A stretch of 20,877 nucleotides of DNA from the IMG/VR virus record IMGVR_UViG_3300031999_000233, positions 1 to 20,877 of that record; one strand, written 5' to 3'. Both the position numbers and the translations under genes were made by a program. The DNA is from a virus. The notes under the pieces were generated by a model. That model was not told the origin of the DNA and ran no database searches. It worked only from the letters and a program-made list of their open reading frames with translations. Within the stretch, counting starts at the first letter, position 1, and each line of letters begins with the position of its first letter. This document shows, in pieces, positions 1-6,347 of the stretch.

Positions 1-583
1 CTGGATCAACAGATACAAGATATGTCTCTGTATTGTCAGTTACAAGTCCTGGAACTGATAATGTGTTTATACTAGTTAATGTGACTGTTGTAGGTTTGAT
101 TAATGGACCACTAAGCTGTATAAGATTACCAGTTTTTGTAAGACCATTGTTTGCTGTTATAGCAGATAGTATAGATGAAACTGATGTTTGTCTAAGTACA
201 CCTAATGATGTAAGTGAAATCAAACTATATGGAGAAAGATCATTAACTAATCCAGTGATAGATAATGTATCAATGTTACTAGTTCCTATAACAGTTTGTT
301 CTGTAAGGGGTCCACCCATTCTGATATCATTTGTTATAGCATCTTTATAAAGACCATTACTAGCTGTCACTGTAAAACCTGGGGTGTTACATATTGCATT
401 ATCTAATTTCTGTAAAGCAACACATATTGTGTCACAAGACTCAATACCTGTGCAAGGAAGAGCTGATCCAATATAGACCATTCCATCACAGCTTATTCTA
501 TTATTAGGACTACATGGGTCATTTCCACATCCAGAATATACAAGTTGATTGTTGTAGCAAGGGCTTCCTGAAGTACAAGACAT
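1..583 (-). CDS. Tail fibre protein, N-terminal part (cut by window edge)
   Basis: The frame opens at an ATG at 583 and runs off the left edge after 194 codons, so the C-terminus is missing. The first 70 residues are Cys-rich (Cys at 3, 9, 19, 24, 32, 44, 50, 54, 65), which suggests a compact attachment domain. Two diverged repeats follow, about 70 residues apart: NGLYKDAITNDIRMGGPLTE (76-95) through ITGLV, and NGLTKTGNLIQLSGPLIKPT (146-165) through VPGLV. The NGLxKxGNxIxLxGxL pattern is a shaft repeat I recognise from fibres of Bacteroidota phages. The start lies behind an A/T-rich leader with no Shine-Dalgarno sequence, 27 nt after the stop of the collar fibre gene, so it is probably the next gene of the same transcript. 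Role in host adhesion is inferred from the repeats and context; the receptor-binding end is not visible. Confidence 0.8.
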   Translation of the reverse strand, partial: MSCTSGSPCYNNQLVYSGCGNDPCSPNNRISCDGMVYIGSALPCTGIESCDTICVALQKLDNAICNTPGFTVTASNGLYKDAITNDIRMGGPLTEQTVIGTSNIDTLSITGLVNDLSPYSLISLTSLGVLRQTSVSSILSAITANNGLTKTGNLIQLSGPLIKPTTVTLTSINTLSVPGLVTDNTETYLVSVDP

Positions 584-610: not shown

Positions 611-1747
611 TTAAGGGATATACATTATGTAGTAACAAGCTAATACAGGTTGAATATTTGCATGAGCAGTACTTCCACCTGTAAGATCAGTTGTTGTATC
701 TACTGTAATTCCTACAGAAACTTTACTAGTAAGACCATTAACAGCAGAAGCATTAGCGTTGTCTGCTGATACAGCATAACTTAAATCACCAACACTTGAT
801 AACTCTGCAGCTGCAACATTTGTTGGACTTATTACAGCAGCACCATTAGATACATGTGCGGTACTAAAACAAAAATGTGTGTGTCCACCATTTGCTTCAG
901 TTACTACAGAATGTGCTACGTGTGAATGACTTGGTATTTGAGGTGTAGTTAATGTAACACCATTAGAACCAGCAGTAGTATATAGTAAATAATTTGGGTT
1001 TAATCCACCAGGAGTGACAACAGCATCCATTCCTGTACCAAAAGTTACTCCAACACCCACTCTTCCTCTTTTATCAGGAGTACCATTTTGACCATTACAT
1101 AAATAGATTTTTTCCCAATCACCTTGTCCAGCACCAGAAAAATCAAAGTTGGAAGGATTACCATAGTATTCAACCACTGTATAAGGAACCATTTTATTGT
1201 ATAACTTATTAGCATCTCCAGGAGCATTGTTTTCAATACATGCTATAACTAAAGAACAAAGGTCAGTTAGTTTTACATAGTTTGTATCAAGATTGATTGC
1301 AAGGGCATTTAGGTCAGCTTCTACAGTACATAGCTTTGTTATGATGGCTTGTACCACTTGATGTGTTACAGAGTCTCCAGAAGCAACTGTAAGGCATCCT
1401 GTTGTGTAAGGAGCTTCTATTGCAGCAACATCTACTGCTAATGCATCTAATTGAACTTTAAGACTACATACAGACTTTATTAAAGCTGTAGTGAAATCTA
1501 CTAACGAAAGCTCTCCACAAGTTGGAAGGAAGTCTTTAACTATATTACAAATAATTGTAGGATCTATAGGCATGTGTATACCTGTACCATCTAGAGCAGA
1601 TGTTAAAAACTCTATTAAAGATTGCTCTACAAACGATAGAGAATCTCCACTTTTTATACCTAACATAGGAACATCTATTCCTGTGTATCTTACACATTGA
1701 TCAGAAGTTATTTCTGAACAACCATTAAAACAATTTGAACAAGCCAT
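611..1747 (-). CDS. Tail fibre with phage tail collar domain
   Basis: 378 residues. The N-terminal ~180 residues look like a shaft or attachment region: a Cys-rich start (MACSNCFNGC), then helical repeats such as LCTVEADLNALAINLD (139-154). The C-terminal half looks like a collar domain. It begins around residue 187 (MVPYTVVEYYGN), has PDKRGRVGVG (224-233) and PQIPSHSH (269-276), then GGHTHF (287-292), and ends NIQPVLACYYIMYIP. The IPxHxH and HxH motifs followed by NxQP near the C-terminus are typical of the collar family, which includes T4 short tail fibre gp12, where such histidines bind metal in the trimer. The protein is therefore a probable receptor-binding or baseplate fibre that works as a trimer. 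It lies 24 nt after the FISUMP adhesin gene. The function call is firm at domain level; the receptor is unknown. Confidence 0.85.
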   Translation of the reverse strand: MACSNCFNGCSEITSDQCVRYTGIDVPMLGIKSGDSLSFVEQSLIEFLTSALDGTGIHMPIDPTIICNIVKDFLPTCGELSLVDFTTALIKSVCSLKVQLDALAVDVAAIEAPYTTGCLTVASGDSVTHQVVQAIITKLCTVEADLNALAINLDTNYVKLTDLCSLVIACIENNAPGDANKLYNKMVPYTVVEYYGNPSNFDFSGAGQGDWEKIYLCNGQNGTPDKRGRVGVGVTFGTGMDAVVTPGGLNPNYLLYTTAGSNGVTLTTPQIPSHSHVAHSVVTEANGGHTHFCFSTAHVSNGAAVISPTNVAAAELSSVGDLSYAVSADNANASAVNGLTSKVSVGITVDTTTDLTGGSTAHANIQPVLACYYIMYIP

Positions 1748-1771: not shown

Positions 1772-2500
1772 TTAATTAAGTTTAACACGCACAGAAAACC
1801 CACCACCACCATTATAAAACTGAGTGTCTATAGCTCCATTAAGATAAGACATACTATAGTAAGTATTACCTGTACTACTCCACCAGAAACCATTTTGACC
1901 AAAAAGAAAAAATGATCCATTTGGAAAACGATAGCCTCCAGGAAGAGCAGTAAAATTTATACAATTTATTGCTGCAATATTAGGACTTTGCCAATGACTT
2001 GTGCCTGCTTCTTTTAGTTTACCACCAGCTACTGATGCTCCACCTAAACAATCACCTATACTTACCCACTCTGTAGGTGTTGCTACATGATATCCTAATG
2101 GAGCAAGCCCTCTTGGATCACTAACCGCAAATCCGTTATATATATATCCATATTCAGCAACAAGACTACAATCTCCATTTGGACAACAATAAGCACCTGT
2201 ACTTGTACCATTAGCAATAGCCCAGTCTCCATCTGTTGGAGCATAAGTTATATTATCACCATTAGCATATTTTGTTACAGCTAAGTTTGTTGTAGCCCAA
2301 TCATTTATACATTCTGGATTACAAGTGGTAGTTGTAGTGGTAGTACTACTTGTACTAGTTGTAGTTGTTGTAGAAGATGATGTAGTTGTTGTACTTATAG
2401 GTGGTTTAGGTGTAGGCTTAACATTGCAACAGCTCTTTGGATAGTAAACAGTTACTCTCTCAAATTTAGCATAATGATTGTTACAATAAGGATTCCACAT
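1772..2500 (-). CDS. Adhesin with poly-Thr linker and FISUMP domain
   Basis: 242 residues in three parts. Residues 1-35 are a short anchor with three Cys (YCNNHY, SCCN). Residues 36-59 are almost only Thr and Ser. Residues 60-242 match the Fibrobacter-succinogenes-major-paralogous pattern: a WATTNLAVTKYANGD start, GLAPLGYHVATPTEWVSIGD (131-150), GGKLKEAG, ALPGGYR (185-191), FWWSST (205-210) and a closing FSVRVKLN. Proteins of this family are surface or fibre adhesins, probably with a lectin-like fold. I infer a host-glycan or surface contact role. The ATG follows the stop of the 93-residue gene directly, with no spacing, so the two are translationally coupled. The end is rich in Tyr, Asn and Gly (GNTYYSMSYLNG), as expected for a variable binding face. 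The exact ligand cannot be told. Confidence 0.8.
   Translation of the reverse strand: MWNPYCNNHYAKFERVTVYYPKSCCNVKPTPKPPISTTTTSSSTTTTTSTSSTTTTTTTCNPECINDWATTNLAVTKYANGDNITYAPTDGDWAIANGTSTGAYCCPNGDCSLVAEYGYIYNGFAVSDPRGLAPLGYHVATPTEWVSIGDCLGGASVAGGKLKEAGTSHWQSPNIAAINCINFTALPGGYRFPNGSFFLFGQNGFWWSSTGNTYYSMSYLNGAIDTQFYNGGGGFSVRVKLN
2324..2395 (-). repeat. Poly-Thr linker tract in the FISUMP adhesin gene
   Basis: Encodes residues 36-59, Thr with a few Ser. It contains the 17-mer TAGTTGTAGTGGTAGTA (plus strand, 2329-2345), which occurs identically in the propeller adhesin gene at 4079-4095. Confidence 0.85.
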
Positions 2501-2782
2501 CTAGTTACTGTTAAGCTTTAGATTAATTTGTTCTATTATAAAAGTCTTCACTTCTAATTCATTGAGGTCTTTAGGAACATCTAATGATATTACATCTTTC
2601 TTTATTTCTTCATTCTCTGTATATTCAAACTTTGCAGATGTCTTACTTCCAGATAGTTTAGAAATGTCTACATACTTTTGTTCACTTTTCTCACTTTCAT
2701 CCTTTATAGTGAATACAGTTTTAATTACTGGTCCTTTACCAACATACTTTACATTCACTGAGCTTTCTATTAATGTTTTCAT
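2501..2782 (-). CDS. Small structural-region protein of unknown function
   Basis: 93 residues, lysine- and glutamate-rich, with no Cys, signal peptide or membrane segment. The pattern is mostly beta (VNVKYVGKGPVIKTVFTIKD) with a C-terminal helical stretch (LNELEVKTFIIEQINLKL). I do not recognise the family. It sits between two poly-Thr adhesins: its ATG is one nucleotide after the stop of the beta-propeller gene, and its stop touches the ATG of the FISUMP gene. This packing suggests it is made with them, perhaps as a chaperone or small adaptor for fibre assembly; that is inference only. Confidence 0.7.
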   Translation of the reverse strand: MKTLIESSVNVKYVGKGPVIKTVFTIKDESEKSEQKYVDISKLSGSKTSAKFEYTENEEIKKDVISLDVPKDLNELEVKTFIIEQINLKLNSN

Positions 2783-2783
2783 A

Positions 2784-4436
2784 TTAAGGAATTATAGTGT
2801 TTGTAATATCTAGAGTTAGTGTACTGTTAATGATTACCGCAGAAAGTGGTCCATCAAGTATTGTTGAATTAGTTATAGTATAAAGTGAAGTTAATATTGT
2901 AGATGTAATTGTTTGAGATGTTAAATAACTAGTGATATCATAAAAAGTTTGTTCTCCATATTGTCCAGGAGTCACTTGAGTTAATGGAAGTTTAAATAAA
3001 TATTCATTATTATTACCAGTACCTCTGCGTCCAACAATCATTAATATACCATTACGTATCTTAGCAGCATCTTGAGAATAATTCCAACTTCCTATCTCAA
3101 TATCAAAATAAGGATTGTCATCTGAACCAATTGCTGTAGTCCATTGATAAACACCGTTTGTATCAAACTTATTAATAACTATATATTTTGCATCTGTAAT
3201 ACAGTCATTTGTCCAATCACAATCAACTTTATCTCCAACCCAATAAACACCTCCTTCAGGACTAACTGCTAATGCAAATATAACATCATCATAAAAAGAA
3301 GTTTCATTAGATACTAATGTACGAGCCCAAGCAAATGTTCCATTAGAGTTTAACTTAAATATTGAAGAACCAAAGTTACAACCATATATATTATTATTAG
3401 CATCTAATTGGAATCCTGAAAGATCGCAGTCTTTATTAAAATCAGCTTGATTTAATCTAGCATCCCATATAACAGTGTTAAGATTATTTGTAAATTTAAT
3501 TATTGTTGTAAAAAAAGCACCAGTATTATTTGCAACAGCTACTAAAACATTACCTAGACTGTCAACTAAAGGAGCATTACTAGTATATGTATCATTTGAA
3601 CCTGTAATAATAATTTCTTTTTGAGTAATTACAGTTCCTGTAGAAGCAGATAATTTAGCTAAATAAACAATACCATTACCACTACCATTATATAAAGATG
3701 CAAATAGATTTCCATTTTTATCAAAGTTTATTCCTATAATAGATGAACTCAATTCCCACCACTCTTCCCATAATATATTTCCATCAGGATCCACCTTTCT
3801 AATACCACGATTATAAACCATATAAAGATTTCCATCAGAATCAATCTTCATTTCAGAAGGATCTGAAACAAAAATATCACCACCAATAATAGCTATAAAT
3901 GTATTTTCCCACACAAGTGTACCAGATGAATCAAACTTTCTATAAGTACCAGTAGAACCAATTTGTGAGAATGAATATATATTACATGCAGCATCTATTT
4001 CCATACTTTCTGGATAGTAATTTGAACTTTCATCAGGAGCAATAGTATTATACCAAAATCCTGAATTAGCACAATTTATAGTTGTAGTGGTAGTAGTGGT
4101 TGTAGGAGATGGGGGAACAATTGGAATGTAATGTGAAGGTTTAGCCTTTTTTCTTACACAACAATTTGTCAGTCCACCTGTTAACACTTTCACTCTACTA
4201 GCTATTGCACTTAATGAAAATGCACAAGCATAATCATAGTTACAAAGCTTATATGTTAATATTCTTTTATAATTTAATAAATCACCAAATGTCTCACTTT
4301 GAATTGAAAGGTTCAAAGAGAATATAATATTATTATATTCATTCTTTGCCAACTCTGTAAGTTTGCAATCAATGATATCTAAAAGTTGTGATATACTCGA
4401 ACACTCTGTACATTCTGAAAGTCTGGGTGATAACAT
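2784..4436 (-). CDS. Modular adhesin: conserved N-terminal anchor, poly-Thr linker, beta-propeller
   Basis: 550 residues. Residues 1-110 form a compact, partly helical domain with several Cys (C9, C12, C24, C65, C71, C92, C93), including DLLNYKRILTYKLCNYDYA (52-70). I recall similar N-terminal modules in Bacteroidota phages and infer a virion anchor. Residues 112-119 are eight Thr. From about 120 to 500 there are repeats of the form D-x-x-G-N-[LI]-Y then K-[FLV]-D-x-x-G-x-x-x-W, for example DSDGNLYMVYNRGIRKVDPD, DKNGNLFASLYNG, DANNNIYGCNFGSSIFKLNS and NKFDTNGVYQWTT. These fit an NHL/SBBP/PQQ-type beta-propeller. The last ~60 residues (from about EQTFYDITSYLTSQ) are Thr/Ser/Ile-rich and beta-like. 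Probably a virion protein that contacts the host surface; ligand unknown. Confidence 0.75.
   Translation of the reverse strand: MLSPRLSECTECSSISQLLDIIDCKLTELAKNEYNNIIFSLNLSIQSETFGDLLNYKRILTYKLCNYDYACAFSLSAIASRVKVLTGGLTNCCVRKKAKPSHYIPIVPPSPTTTTTTTTINCANSGFWYNTIAPDESSNYYPESMEIDAACNIYSFSQIGSTGTYRKFDSSGTLVWENTFIAIIGGDIFVSDPSEMKIDSDGNLYMVYNRGIRKVDPDGNILWEEWWELSSSIIGINFDKNGNLFASLYNGSGNGIVYLAKLSASTGTVITQKEIIITGSNDTYTSNAPLVDSLGNVLVAVANNTGAFFTTIIKFTNNLNTVIWDARLNQADFNKDCDLSGFQLDANNNIYGCNFGSSIFKLNSNGTFAWARTLVSNETSFYDDVIFALAVSPEGGVYWVGDKVDCDWTNDCITDAKYIVINKFDTNGVYQWTTAIGSDDNPYFDIEIGSWNYSQDAAKIRNGILMIVGRRGTGNNNEYLFKLPLTQVTPGQYGEQTFYDITSYLTSQTITSTILTSLYTITNSTILDGPLSAVIINSTLTLDITNTIIP
4080..4103 (-). repeat. 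Poly-Thr linker tract in the propeller adhesin gene
   Basis: Encodes eight Thr (residues 112-119) between the N-terminal anchor and the propeller. Overlaps the 17-mer at 4079-4095 shared with the FISUMP gene. Confidence 0.85.
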
Positions 4437-4442
4437 CTTAAA

Positions 4443-4535
4443 TTATTTTTTGGTACCGTTACAATATGCACATAAGCCATTAACTAGCTGACATCCACAT
4501 CCAACATTTGTTCCACATTGTTTACAACTTGCCAT
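4443..4535 (-). CDS. 30-residue Cys-rich microprotein
   Basis: A complete frame ATG to TAA encoding 30 residues: starts MASCKQCGTNVGCGCQLVNG and continues LCAYCNGTKK. Six cysteines occur as CxxC, CxC and CxxC (C4, C7, C13, C15, C22, C25), a spacing suited to one or two zinc sites or to disulphides. It fills the gap between the 187-residue gene (whose stop ends one nucleotide from this one's leader) and the propeller adhesin (start 7 nt after the stop), on the same strand. The start has the same A/T-rich leader as its neighbours (AATTAATATGGC). I recall similar small proteins beside this gene pair in Bacteroidota phages but cannot confirm this here. Probably a small virion or assembly protein. 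Confidence 0.65.
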   Translation of the reverse strand: MASCKQCGTNVGCGCQLVNGLCAYCNGTKK

Positions 4536-4536
4536 A

Positions 4537-5100
4537 TTAATTAAAATTATTTATGTAATTATTTCCAGAACAGTTACAACCGTTCCTTATAAAACTATCT
4601 AACATTTTATTTGCTTGATTGTAAAGTTTATTAGATTCTGCTGTAGCACAATTATTAGCAGCAGCAATCGCTCCTTGTATAAAGAAGTTTATACTTGTGA
4701 GGTTTACTTTCTGTTGTGTTCTGATAGCCCTATCACATTCCATCATATCTAGATTCATAAATGCAGAATCAAACTTCTCTTGAAGTTGTTCAACCCTGAT
4801 TATAGATCTTTCTACAAAGTTCTCATACGCAGGAGCAACTGAATACTTCAAGAAGTATACACCATCTGGAATAGGAACTATAGGAACTCCTACAGGTGTC
4901 AATCCCAAAGAGGTTGAATTAAAAACATTTATTGTATTTATATTAAAGGGAAGGATAACTTTTCCAAATCCTGGAACAGTTATTTCGATTGTGGGAGCAG
5001 AAACAGGAGGAGCTATAGGATATGTTGAAATATCATTAATAGCTAAAGTTTTACTACTATATGTAGGGACTACTAATATATCTAAATTTAAATCTGCCAT
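4537..5100 (-). CDS. Conserved virion-region protein of unknown function
   Basis: 187 residues. The N-terminal half is proline- and beta-rich (ISTYPIAPPVSAPTIEITVP, then GVYFLKYSVAPAYENFVERS). The C-terminal half is helical (RVEQLQEKFDSAFMNLDMME, then IQGAIAAANNCATAESNKLYNQANKMLDSF) and ends in an Asn/Cys tail, NGCNCSGNNYINNFN. I recall proteins with this layout next to tail and fibre genes in large Bacteroidota phages, but know no assigned role. It is the first gene after the hairpin terminator at 5116-5156 and starts the adhesion set. A two-part beta then helical build suits a baseplate or neck adaptor; this is inference. Confidence 0.75.
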   Translation of the reverse strand: MADLNLDILVVPTYSSKTLAINDISTYPIAPPVSAPTIEITVPGFGKVILPFNINTINVFNSTSLGLTPVGVPIVPIPDGVYFLKYSVAPAYENFVERSIIRVEQLQEKFDSAFMNLDMMECDRAIRTQQKVNLTSINFFIQGAIAAANNCATAESNKLYNQANKMLDSFIRNGCNCSGNNYINNFN

Positions 5101-5115
5101 ATTATTTAAAATAAA

Positions 5116-5156
5116 TATGCCAGAGGATTGAGTTTGATCCTCTCACCTCTGGCATA
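5116..5156 (-). terminator. Hairpin terminator after the 387-residue gene
   Basis: A perfect 11-bp inverted repeat, TATGCCAGAGG (5116-5126) and CCTCTGGCATA (5146-5156), encloses a 19-nt loop. In the leftward direction the stem is followed by TTTATTTT, so it reads as a rho-independent terminator. It lies 27 nt past the stop of the 387-residue gene and just before the 187-residue gene, and would cut or attenuate transcription between the abundant structural genes and the adhesion genes. An alternative inner pairing GAGGAT/ATCCTC also exists. Confidence 0.7.
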
Positions 5157-5183
5157 GGTTATATGATTTCTATTCTTTTTCTA

Positions 5184-6347
5184 CTAAGGAATCTTAGTTG
5201 TTGTTGTTGAAGTGCTAGGCCATACAGTAGTAGTTGTACTAGTAGTAGTCAAACATGTATTGTCACCAGCAGCAGTTCCTAAAGCAGGAGTTAAAATAGC
5301 ACTCAAGTTAGTTGAAGCAGTTCCAACTGGAACAGCAATTATAACCATTGAATCTTCCATGATATAATCACCCCATTGGTAAGCAGATCTGTCATACTCG
5401 TTAAACTTGATGTAGTAGCTATCATAAGTTGTACCAGCACTAACCCAGCTTTCAAAGTTTTCATTGTAACCAGCCATTCTGTAAAGATGCTTCAAGTAAC
5501 CAGCTTGGTAGCTATAGAAGTTCTTTTCTAATTGGATGATCTCGTCTGATGTTCCATCAGGATAAGAAGAACGTTGAGTGATTACAGGAGTTGCAACAAT
5601 ATTACAATTGTCAGCAACAATGAAATCAGCAGTTGTAGCAGGACCAGAATAAACGAAAGTACGGAAGTACATTCTGTCATATTCAAAAGGGAATGCAGCA
5701 ACATCACATGGTTGACCATATTTAGTTAATGGTTTACCAGAGATACGTAAAATTGCATTAGCATCATTACCAATTCTTTGGAATTGATAGAAAGTGCCAA
5801 AGTTAATATTGTCAGGGTTGATACCTGGAGCATGCATGTCAAACTCTAGGATAGCCTTGTCAATAAAAGCAGGTACATCAACTGTATCACAAGGATCTCC
5901 ACCACAATCGCAGCAAGGAGCTACAATAGTAATAGAACGAGTGAAACCATTGAAATACAAGGTGTCAATGTAAGAAGAATGAGCACGTAATGTAATAGTG
6001 ACAACATCACCACACTTTACATTCCAACCAGCTACATCAGTCACCTGAGTTGCTGCTGTAGGACATCCGTTTACTTTGTACCATTCAGTTACATTAGAAG
6101 TACAGTTTGCACTAGCACATCCTTTAATTTTGTCTGAACGTTTAGATCCTTGTAAATAAGTGTTTGTTCTACCTTGTGCAATGTAGAAATAAGGAGCAGC
6201 AGCAATAGTGCCTGAAGTCAAAGCTGCATATGTGTTACTAAACACACCAACTTGACCAGCTGTTAAGTCTTGCGTTGATCCAGAACTAGGAAACGTTGTT
6301 TGTCCTACTGGTACCACGAAGAGGGTAGTTAATGAAAAATCTGACAT
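5184..6347 (-). CDS. Virion structural protein of unknown class, Thr-rich C-terminus
   Basis: 387 residues, mostly beta-rich, with no membrane segment. It begins MSDFSLTTLFVVPVGQTTFP and has APYFYIAQGRTNTYLQGSKR (116 to 135 region is preceded by an Ala/Thr stretch). The middle holds a dense Cys cluster, APCCDCGGDPCDTVDVP, followed by FIDKAILEFDMHAPGINPDN. The last 21 residues are a Thr/Ser tract (TTTSTTTT, 367-374; STSTTTT, 378-384) ending KIP. Codons are cleaner and less AT-skewed than in the fibre genes, which fits high expression. It is placed between connector genes and the adhesion set and is followed by a terminator. A tube, ring or decoration protein are all possible; I do not recognise the fold. 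The Thr tail resembles the linkers of the two adhesins but carries no further domain. Confidence 0.75.
   Translation of the reverse strand: MSDFSLTTLFVVPVGQTTFPSSGSTQDLTAGQVGVFSNTYAALTSGTIAAAPYFYIAQGRTNTYLQGSKRSDKIKGCASANCTSNVTEWYKVNGCPTAATQVTDVAGWNVKCGDVVTITLRAHSSYIDTLYFNGFTRSITIVAPCCDCGGDPCDTVDVPAFIDKAILEFDMHAPGINPDNINFGTFYQFQRIGNDANAILRISGKPLTKYGQPCDVAAFPFEYDRMYFRTFVYSGPATTADFIVADNCNIVATPVITQRSSYPDGTSDEIIQLEKNFYSYQAGYLKHLYRMAGYNENFESWVSAGTTYDSYYIKFNEYDRSAYQWGDYIMEDSMVIIAVPVGTASTNLSAILTPALGTAAGDNTCLTTTSTTTTVWPSTSTTTTKIP
5196..5249 (-). repeat. Thr/Ser-codon tract at the end of the 387-residue gene
   Basis: Degenerate ACT/ACA/AGT codons encode residues 367-384, TTTSTTTT-VWP-STSTTTT. It is the third Thr tract in the window, but here it is terminal instead of linking two domains. 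Confidence 0.8.

Follow-up and report, generated by a model that had tools for sequence, protein, structure and literature searches.

Threonine tracts as probable joints for domain exchange in virion proteins of environmental crAss-like phages

Low-complexity tracts of threonine and serine occur in three structural proteins encoded in the window, a term used here for the whole 20.9-kb stretch of phage DNA under analysis. An earlier note on this DNA had read them as joints at which receptor-binding domains could be swapped, pointing to a 17-mer common to two of the tracts and to a third protein whose domain seemed to have been lost or never gained. Do the tracts mark sites of domain exchange and, if so, do they act as DNA or as protein?

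The window and its tracts

The window is a structural module of a crAss-like phage (Crassvirales). All its major genes lie on the minus strand, in the order terminase (phrog_6681), major capsid protein (MCP), ring-3/4-like protein, 387-aa protein, 187-aa virion protein, tract genes and collar/fibre-like gene. The MCP matches Crass_capsid PF23898 above the cut-off (E 7e-29) as well as phrog_11589, and the ring 3/4-like protein beside the capsid genes matches PF25710 weakly, under the curated cut-off (E 0.0016). The nearest capsid protein of a cultured phage, that of Leptolyngbya phage Lbo-JY46, is 26% identical, and the corresponding genes of that phage carry no long Thr tracts. Tissierellales was considered as a host from the sole match among GTDB genomes, one contig in a Tissierellales bin, and was not accepted on that evidence. 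A 13.4-kb contig in a Tissierellales MAG (L319), possibly a mis-binned phage contig, encodes a relative of the 387-aa protein with 63% identity.

The features are listed below; L numbers denote related loci, and a gene is called bare when its stop codon comes within about 0-16 residues after the tract.

5184-6347, minus strand: 387-aa capsid auxiliary protein, crAss gp36-like by the match of its AF2 model to 7qof_a; comes after the putative ring 3/4 gene
5184-5258, minus strand: Thr-rich C-terminal tail of the capsid auxiliary protein (residues 364-387 plus stop); tract proper at 5196-5249
4537-5100, minus strand: 187-aa virion structural protein (phrog_31752)
4104-4436, minus strand: N3 anchor of the propeller protein, a predicted three-helix bundle (AF2, pLDDT 83)
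4080-4103, minus strand: T8 joint of the propeller protein; close homology with L082 stops at 4114, just ahead of it
2787-4079, minus strand: exchangeable C-domain, probable beta-propeller (PF22701 under cut-off; propeller ORF 2784-4436); missing in L082
2501-2782, minus strand: 93-aa gene between the propeller and FISUMP genes; missing in L082
2396-2500, minus strand: N2 anchor (VTVYYPxxC) of the FISUMP protein; bare in L027, L039, L041, L067 and L104
2324-2395, minus strand: 24-residue T/S joint of the FISUMP protein, STTTTSSSTTTTTSTSSTTTTTTT
1775-2323, minus strand: exchangeable FISUMP C-domain (PF09603; FISUMP ORF 1772-2500)
1776-4114, no strand assigned: segment replaced between the window and L082, with 99.1% identity upstream and 97.7% downstream
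611-1747, minus strand: 378-aa collar/tail-fibre-like protein (phrog_8469), downstream of the swapped segment and conserved in relatives
1-583, minus strand: N0-family gene truncated at the window end; N-terminus MSCTSGSPCYNN, the same in L082

The FISUMP domain matches PF09603 at E 6e-27, and the propeller label is a probable one, given sequence repeats and a sub-threshold match to PF22701 (24 bits against a cut-off of 27.5). A pattern search of IMG/VR for other copies of these two domains found no relatives. The N3 anchor model drew generic structure matches only (best Z 8.6), and profiles of N0, N3 and the 387-aa protein found nothing specific among PDB sequences. No relative of the 93-aa gene was found in 318 loci; it may assist the propeller domain or simply travel with it as a passenger.

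The three tracts described earlier are confirmed at 2324-2395 (FISUMP), 4080-4103 (propeller, T8) and 5196-5249 (387-aa protein, TTTSTTTTVWPSTSTTTT), as is the 17-mer TAGTTGTAGTGGTAGTA, identical at 2329-2345 and 4079-4095 and found nowhere else. Its reading as a recombination footprint is not borne out. Dinucleotide shuffles reproduced the match 0 times, a null that ignores the Thr coding of both stretches, and about 12-13 nt of identity between the two window tracts is expected from poly-Thr coding alone. Shuffling of synonymous codons inside the tracts produced a common word of at least 17 nt in 3.3% of trials (P=0.03), and redrawing of codons from genome usage did so in 12% (P=0.12). Among 83 within-genome tract pairs of relatives, shared words were no longer than under the Thr-coding null (median p 0.67); a hotspot at the DNA level is therefore not shown, and the 17-mer is a possible recombination substrate rather than evidence of recombination.

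The suggestion of a missing domain in the 387-aa protein also had to be abandoned. An AF2 model built from 14 relatives, of modest confidence (pLDDT 56), has as its best match chain 7qof_a of the icosahedral capsid of phicrAss001 (Z 11.3, with 251 of 333 residues aligned; next match 6.1), a chain identified as the capsid auxiliary protein gp36 from its length (333) and the gene order (PMC10172136). By this model, the 387-aa protein is a gp36-type capsid auxiliary protein located after the putative ring gene. The matched fold stops at model residue 362, and there the Thr tail begins. Of 154 distinct complete homologues, about 144 have 14 or more T/S among their last 26 residues, and in none of the 154 does a domain follow the tail. 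A gp36-like fold together with a conserved tail and no domain thus argues that this protein is not a fibre minus its head.

Exchange of C-terminal domains at the tracts

We surveyed 318 related IMG/VR loci, which hold 438 distinct genes bearing one of four N-terminal anchor families (N0-N3); the FISUMP and propeller anchors of the window are N2 and N3, respectively. N3 is found mostly as a standalone gene without tract (138 genes, mostly 88 aa), with three bare genes and two carrying a domain (window and L082); N2 genes are bare in five cases and carry a domain only in the window. The numbers of genes with domain, bare and without tract are 78, 51 (51/183) and 51 for N0, and 83, 9 and 10 for N1. 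The 164 domain-bearing genes fall into 64 C-domain clusters, which may conceal remote homology; their contents include FISUMP, Lcl_C-like domains (just under cut-off), the DUF5122 propeller and a weak CBM6-like match, and most C-domains match no Pfam family. FISUMP domains are found on three anchor families (N0, N2 and N3), and up to six tract-linked modules occur in one protein. Bare genes usually end two or three residues past the tract (LP, IP, VAP).

Two side observations concern the surroundings of these genes. In five loci (L150, L161, L162, L167, L168), Thr tracts are also present in a protein of ~1,550-1,820 aa (MAEQEQGNIRQEYNNATTGLNMDQ type) encoded upstream of N1 genes. After the last tract gene, a conserved AAAAACCCTGTTTTGTTGGTTTTACAGGG...CTCCTGGGG...CCCTGGGAGTTTTT (L046:14234-14340, L019:13675-13770) resembles a pair of terminator hairpins and bounds the exchanged unit as its constant 3' flank.

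The most direct case of replacement is given by L082, which is of one species with the window. The two are 99.1% identical over 682 bp up to 4114, near the propeller tract, and 97.7% identical over 1,775 bp from 1776, that is, from the FISUMP stop codon on. Between these flanks the window holds the propeller domain, the 93-aa gene, and the N2 anchor, tract and FISUMP domain, 2.3 kb that are missing in L082, where the propeller anchor carries just a tract and a different FISUMP domain (41% identity with the window's); this junction is known from one contig only. Likewise, the bare gene of L035 and its counterpart with an 87-aa domain in L037 lie in DNA ~96% identical across 4.9 kb before and 7.1 kb after, and L040/L038 and L007/L043 behave in the same way. 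Domains also move between anchor families: one domain (93% identical) has N0 as its anchor in L070 and N1 in L046/L052. In the latter two loci, the N0-N1 spacer and the opening bases of an N1 gene come after the domain; this scar suggests that the domain was transferred from the N0 position. Tandem N1 genes, present in 8 loci, could have arisen by unequal crossover between tracts.

In 106 gene pairs whose anchors have 90% identity or more, the whole C-domain was common in 68, unrelated in 31 and partially covered in 7, the shorter domain being nearly or fully covered in each of the latter. When the 31 swap pairs were taken together with 33 bare/domain pairs at the same anchor threshold, homology ended in the tract in 62 of 64, a set that cannot by itself prove localization because it was picked for differing C-terminal parts. 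Homology restarted within 30 nt of the stop codon in 46/64.

In an unconditional survey, the ends of matches of at least 1 kb and at least 90% identity were recorded without conditioning on tracts. Of the right (5' side) ends, 45 lay in tracts, where 3.3 were expected (13.8-fold), and of the left (3' side) ends, 64 lay within 30 nt of the stop codon of tract genes, where 1.3 were expected (48-fold); these counts come from phylogenetically correlated pairs. For right ends, anchors (1.8) and C-domains (0.65) were near expectation and other ORFs were depleted, with a second, weaker hotspot at the collar/fibre-like gene (window 611-1747 and homologues; 140 right ends against 37.8 expected, 3.7-fold). 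An earlier survey with other settings went in the same direction (37 against 9.7; 73 against 3.4). Exact crossover points are blurred, since common Thr coding lets alignments extend into the tracts. The bare or domain-bearing state of N0 changed at least 22 times (a raw minimum count) on a tree of the adjacent collar protein from 103 genomes.

Taken together, the L082 replacement, the 31 pairs with unrelated C-domains, the 33 bare/domain pairs and the unconditional survey uphold the proposal that the tract is a joint at which C-domains are exchanged; in L082, as in the 62 pairs, the same anchor is joined to a different C-terminal part with the break at the tract. At the level of sequence comparison, our results show that the exchanged unit runs from tract to stop codon, that anchors and domains recombine and that domains cross anchor families. 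With such a unit, nearly any domain can therefore be gained, lost, replaced or moved while leaving both folded parts undisturbed.

The role of the tract and the origin of the junctions

These findings allow us to propose, with a probability of about 0.82, that environmental crAss-like phages possess a modular adhesion system in which the tracts serve as interchangeable joints. The N-terminal part, small and conserved (N0-N3), would dock the protein on the virion, as its position among virion genes suggests. It is followed by a Thr/Ser joint made of runs, typically of seven Thr, and short x-x-P spacers, and then either by nothing (stop after 0-16 residues) or by an exchangeable C-domain, sometimes by several modules. 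Co-infecting relatives most likely recombine, with long homology on both sides spreading existing variants, and rarer crossovers inside Thr-coding DNA would create new anchor-domain fusions, a notion consistent with the scar and with the tandem anchor genes. The benefit would probably lie in a change of the surface bound; the C-domains may bind cell surfaces or receptors, with hints from domain families (FISUMP, Lcl_C, weak CBM6, DUF5122 propeller).

The composition of the joints bears on the level at which they act. Pure Thr runs in the 438 genes are exactly seven residues long in 294 of 595 cases, six in 96 and eight in 98 (L027, L049 and L070 offer examples), and the 294 T7 runs are written in 220 different codon strings. 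Short Pro-ending spacers (IAP, VAP, APP) recur between runs, as found with a search pattern that itself required Pro in third place. A run length that is kept while its codons scramble speaks against slippage and points to selection at the protein level.

It is close to an even bet, though slightly short of it, that breaks occur anywhere and that only fusions through an unstructured linker survive, the tract acting at the protein level alone and the DNA holding no hotspot. The lack of excess common words between tracts of one genome, the mixture of Thr codons (ACA, ACT, ACC), the constancy of T7 and the swapping of domains as wholes all speak for such a filter. Moves between non-homologous anchors, on the other hand, require some crossover in or near the tracts, and the tandem N1 genes, like the scar, resemble products of tract-to-tract unequal crossover. 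This filter is compatible with interchangeable joints as regards the role of the tract and differs on the origin of the junctions: the filter gains from the absence of extra common words, and the occurrence of some tract-to-tract events gains from the scar and the tandem genes. A bolder version of our proposal would make T7 with x-x-P spacers a purpose-evolved universal joint, present on at least four unrelated anchors of one virion, with bare anchors as empty sockets into which any phage of the group plugs any domain of a shared pool and with new fusions made by tract-to-tract crossover; we advance it tentatively, as somewhat doubtful.

It is unlikely that the tracts serve mainly for glycosylation or coating, as mucin-like Thr tails of the capsid and of fibres, with exchange as a side effect of their being linkers. 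The retention of the tail of the capsid auxiliary protein without a domain in relatives and the abundance of bare anchor-tract proteins among N0 genes agree with a coating role; the breakpoint and cassette data, however, demonstrate exchange whatever the primary role may be. Since both the filter and the coating reading are compatible with interchangeable joints, the likelihoods given to them and to our proposal do not total one.

Assembly chimeras, in which short-read misjoins at low-complexity Thr-coding DNA would create false swaps, deserve attention given that all sequences are metagenome assemblies, that the tracts are repetitive and that the L082 junction was found once. Such an origin is nevertheless highly improbable: in the 46 pairs in which homology restarts near the stop codon, often with the same >90% relative, two misjoins would be needed; for 18 of the 31 swaps, each of the two junction types is found in two or more non-identical genes; tracts have only short exact words in common (17 nt in the window); and the N1-start scar lies outside any tract. 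Phase or length variation through (ACN)n slippage, in place of domain exchange, would account for tract lengths and T-run numbers that differ between relatives but is barely credible, as steps of three keep the frame, the sharp peak at seven over so many codon strings is not a slippage-like spread, and the eight bare genes examined have no frameshifted or orphan domain behind the anchor, their stops being followed in collinear order by conserved DNA, either intergenic or part of the next gene.

Relation to known systems

Within the Crassvirales, phicrAss001 and p-crAssphage have a fast-evolving fibre gene region, the crassvirus head fibres gp21 and gp29 dock through short N-termini (residues 1-38 and 1-58), and diversification of p-crAssphage has been described through BACON repeats and a diversity-generating retroelement (PMC10172136, PMC10136315). 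The window shares with these phages the virion plan of Crass_capsid MCP, putative ring protein and gp36-like capsid auxiliary protein, as well as a fast-evolving fibre gene region; in its group, exchange takes place at Thr joints. By sequence, anchors N0 and N3 have no clear match to a solved structure, and a term search of the crassvirus papers found no mention of threonine.

Ser/Thr-rich low-complexity regions are enriched in polysaccharide-binding proteins, and a possible link to recombination was raised by the authors of that report, whose data come from bacterial proteomes, mostly of two species, with phage low-complexity regions most enriched in Ala, Gly and Pro (PMC6821194). The joints described here are likewise Ser/Thr-rich and of low complexity and differ in belonging to phages. 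In the open literature searched, we found no description of Thr joints in phage fibres. The exchange unit, the joint and the 64 C-domain clusters can be read from sequence, so that domain gain, loss and swapping become countable in any metagenome time series, and the catalogue of C-domains offers specific candidates for assays of glycan or cell binding.

In tail adhesins of other phages, exchange takes place at collagen-like (Gly-X-Y) repeats and Gly-rich boxes. As in those adhesins, a low-complexity linker coincides here with the breakpoints of putative host-range domains; the Thr joints are built of another residue in a defined unit (T7 plus x-x-P), with no collagen triple-helix repeat.

A further parallel lies in modular phage receptor-binding proteins, such as Klebsiella phage depolymerases, in which a conserved N-terminal anchor carries an exchanged C-terminal domain. 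The shuffling of protein fragments has been surveyed (PMC10684548). Our genes resemble these proteins in having a conserved, presumably virion-side N-terminus, unrelated C-domains in close relatives and signs of recent exchange: near-identical anchors carry unrelated C-domains in the 31 pairs at ≥90% and in the window and L082, and the breakpoint falls at a defined joint in the 62/64 pairs and with the 13.8-fold unconditional enrichment. They differ in that one type of low-complexity joint is used by no fewer than four unrelated anchor families in adjoining genes, in that domains cross between these families, and in that bare genes, made of an anchor plus its joint, are common.
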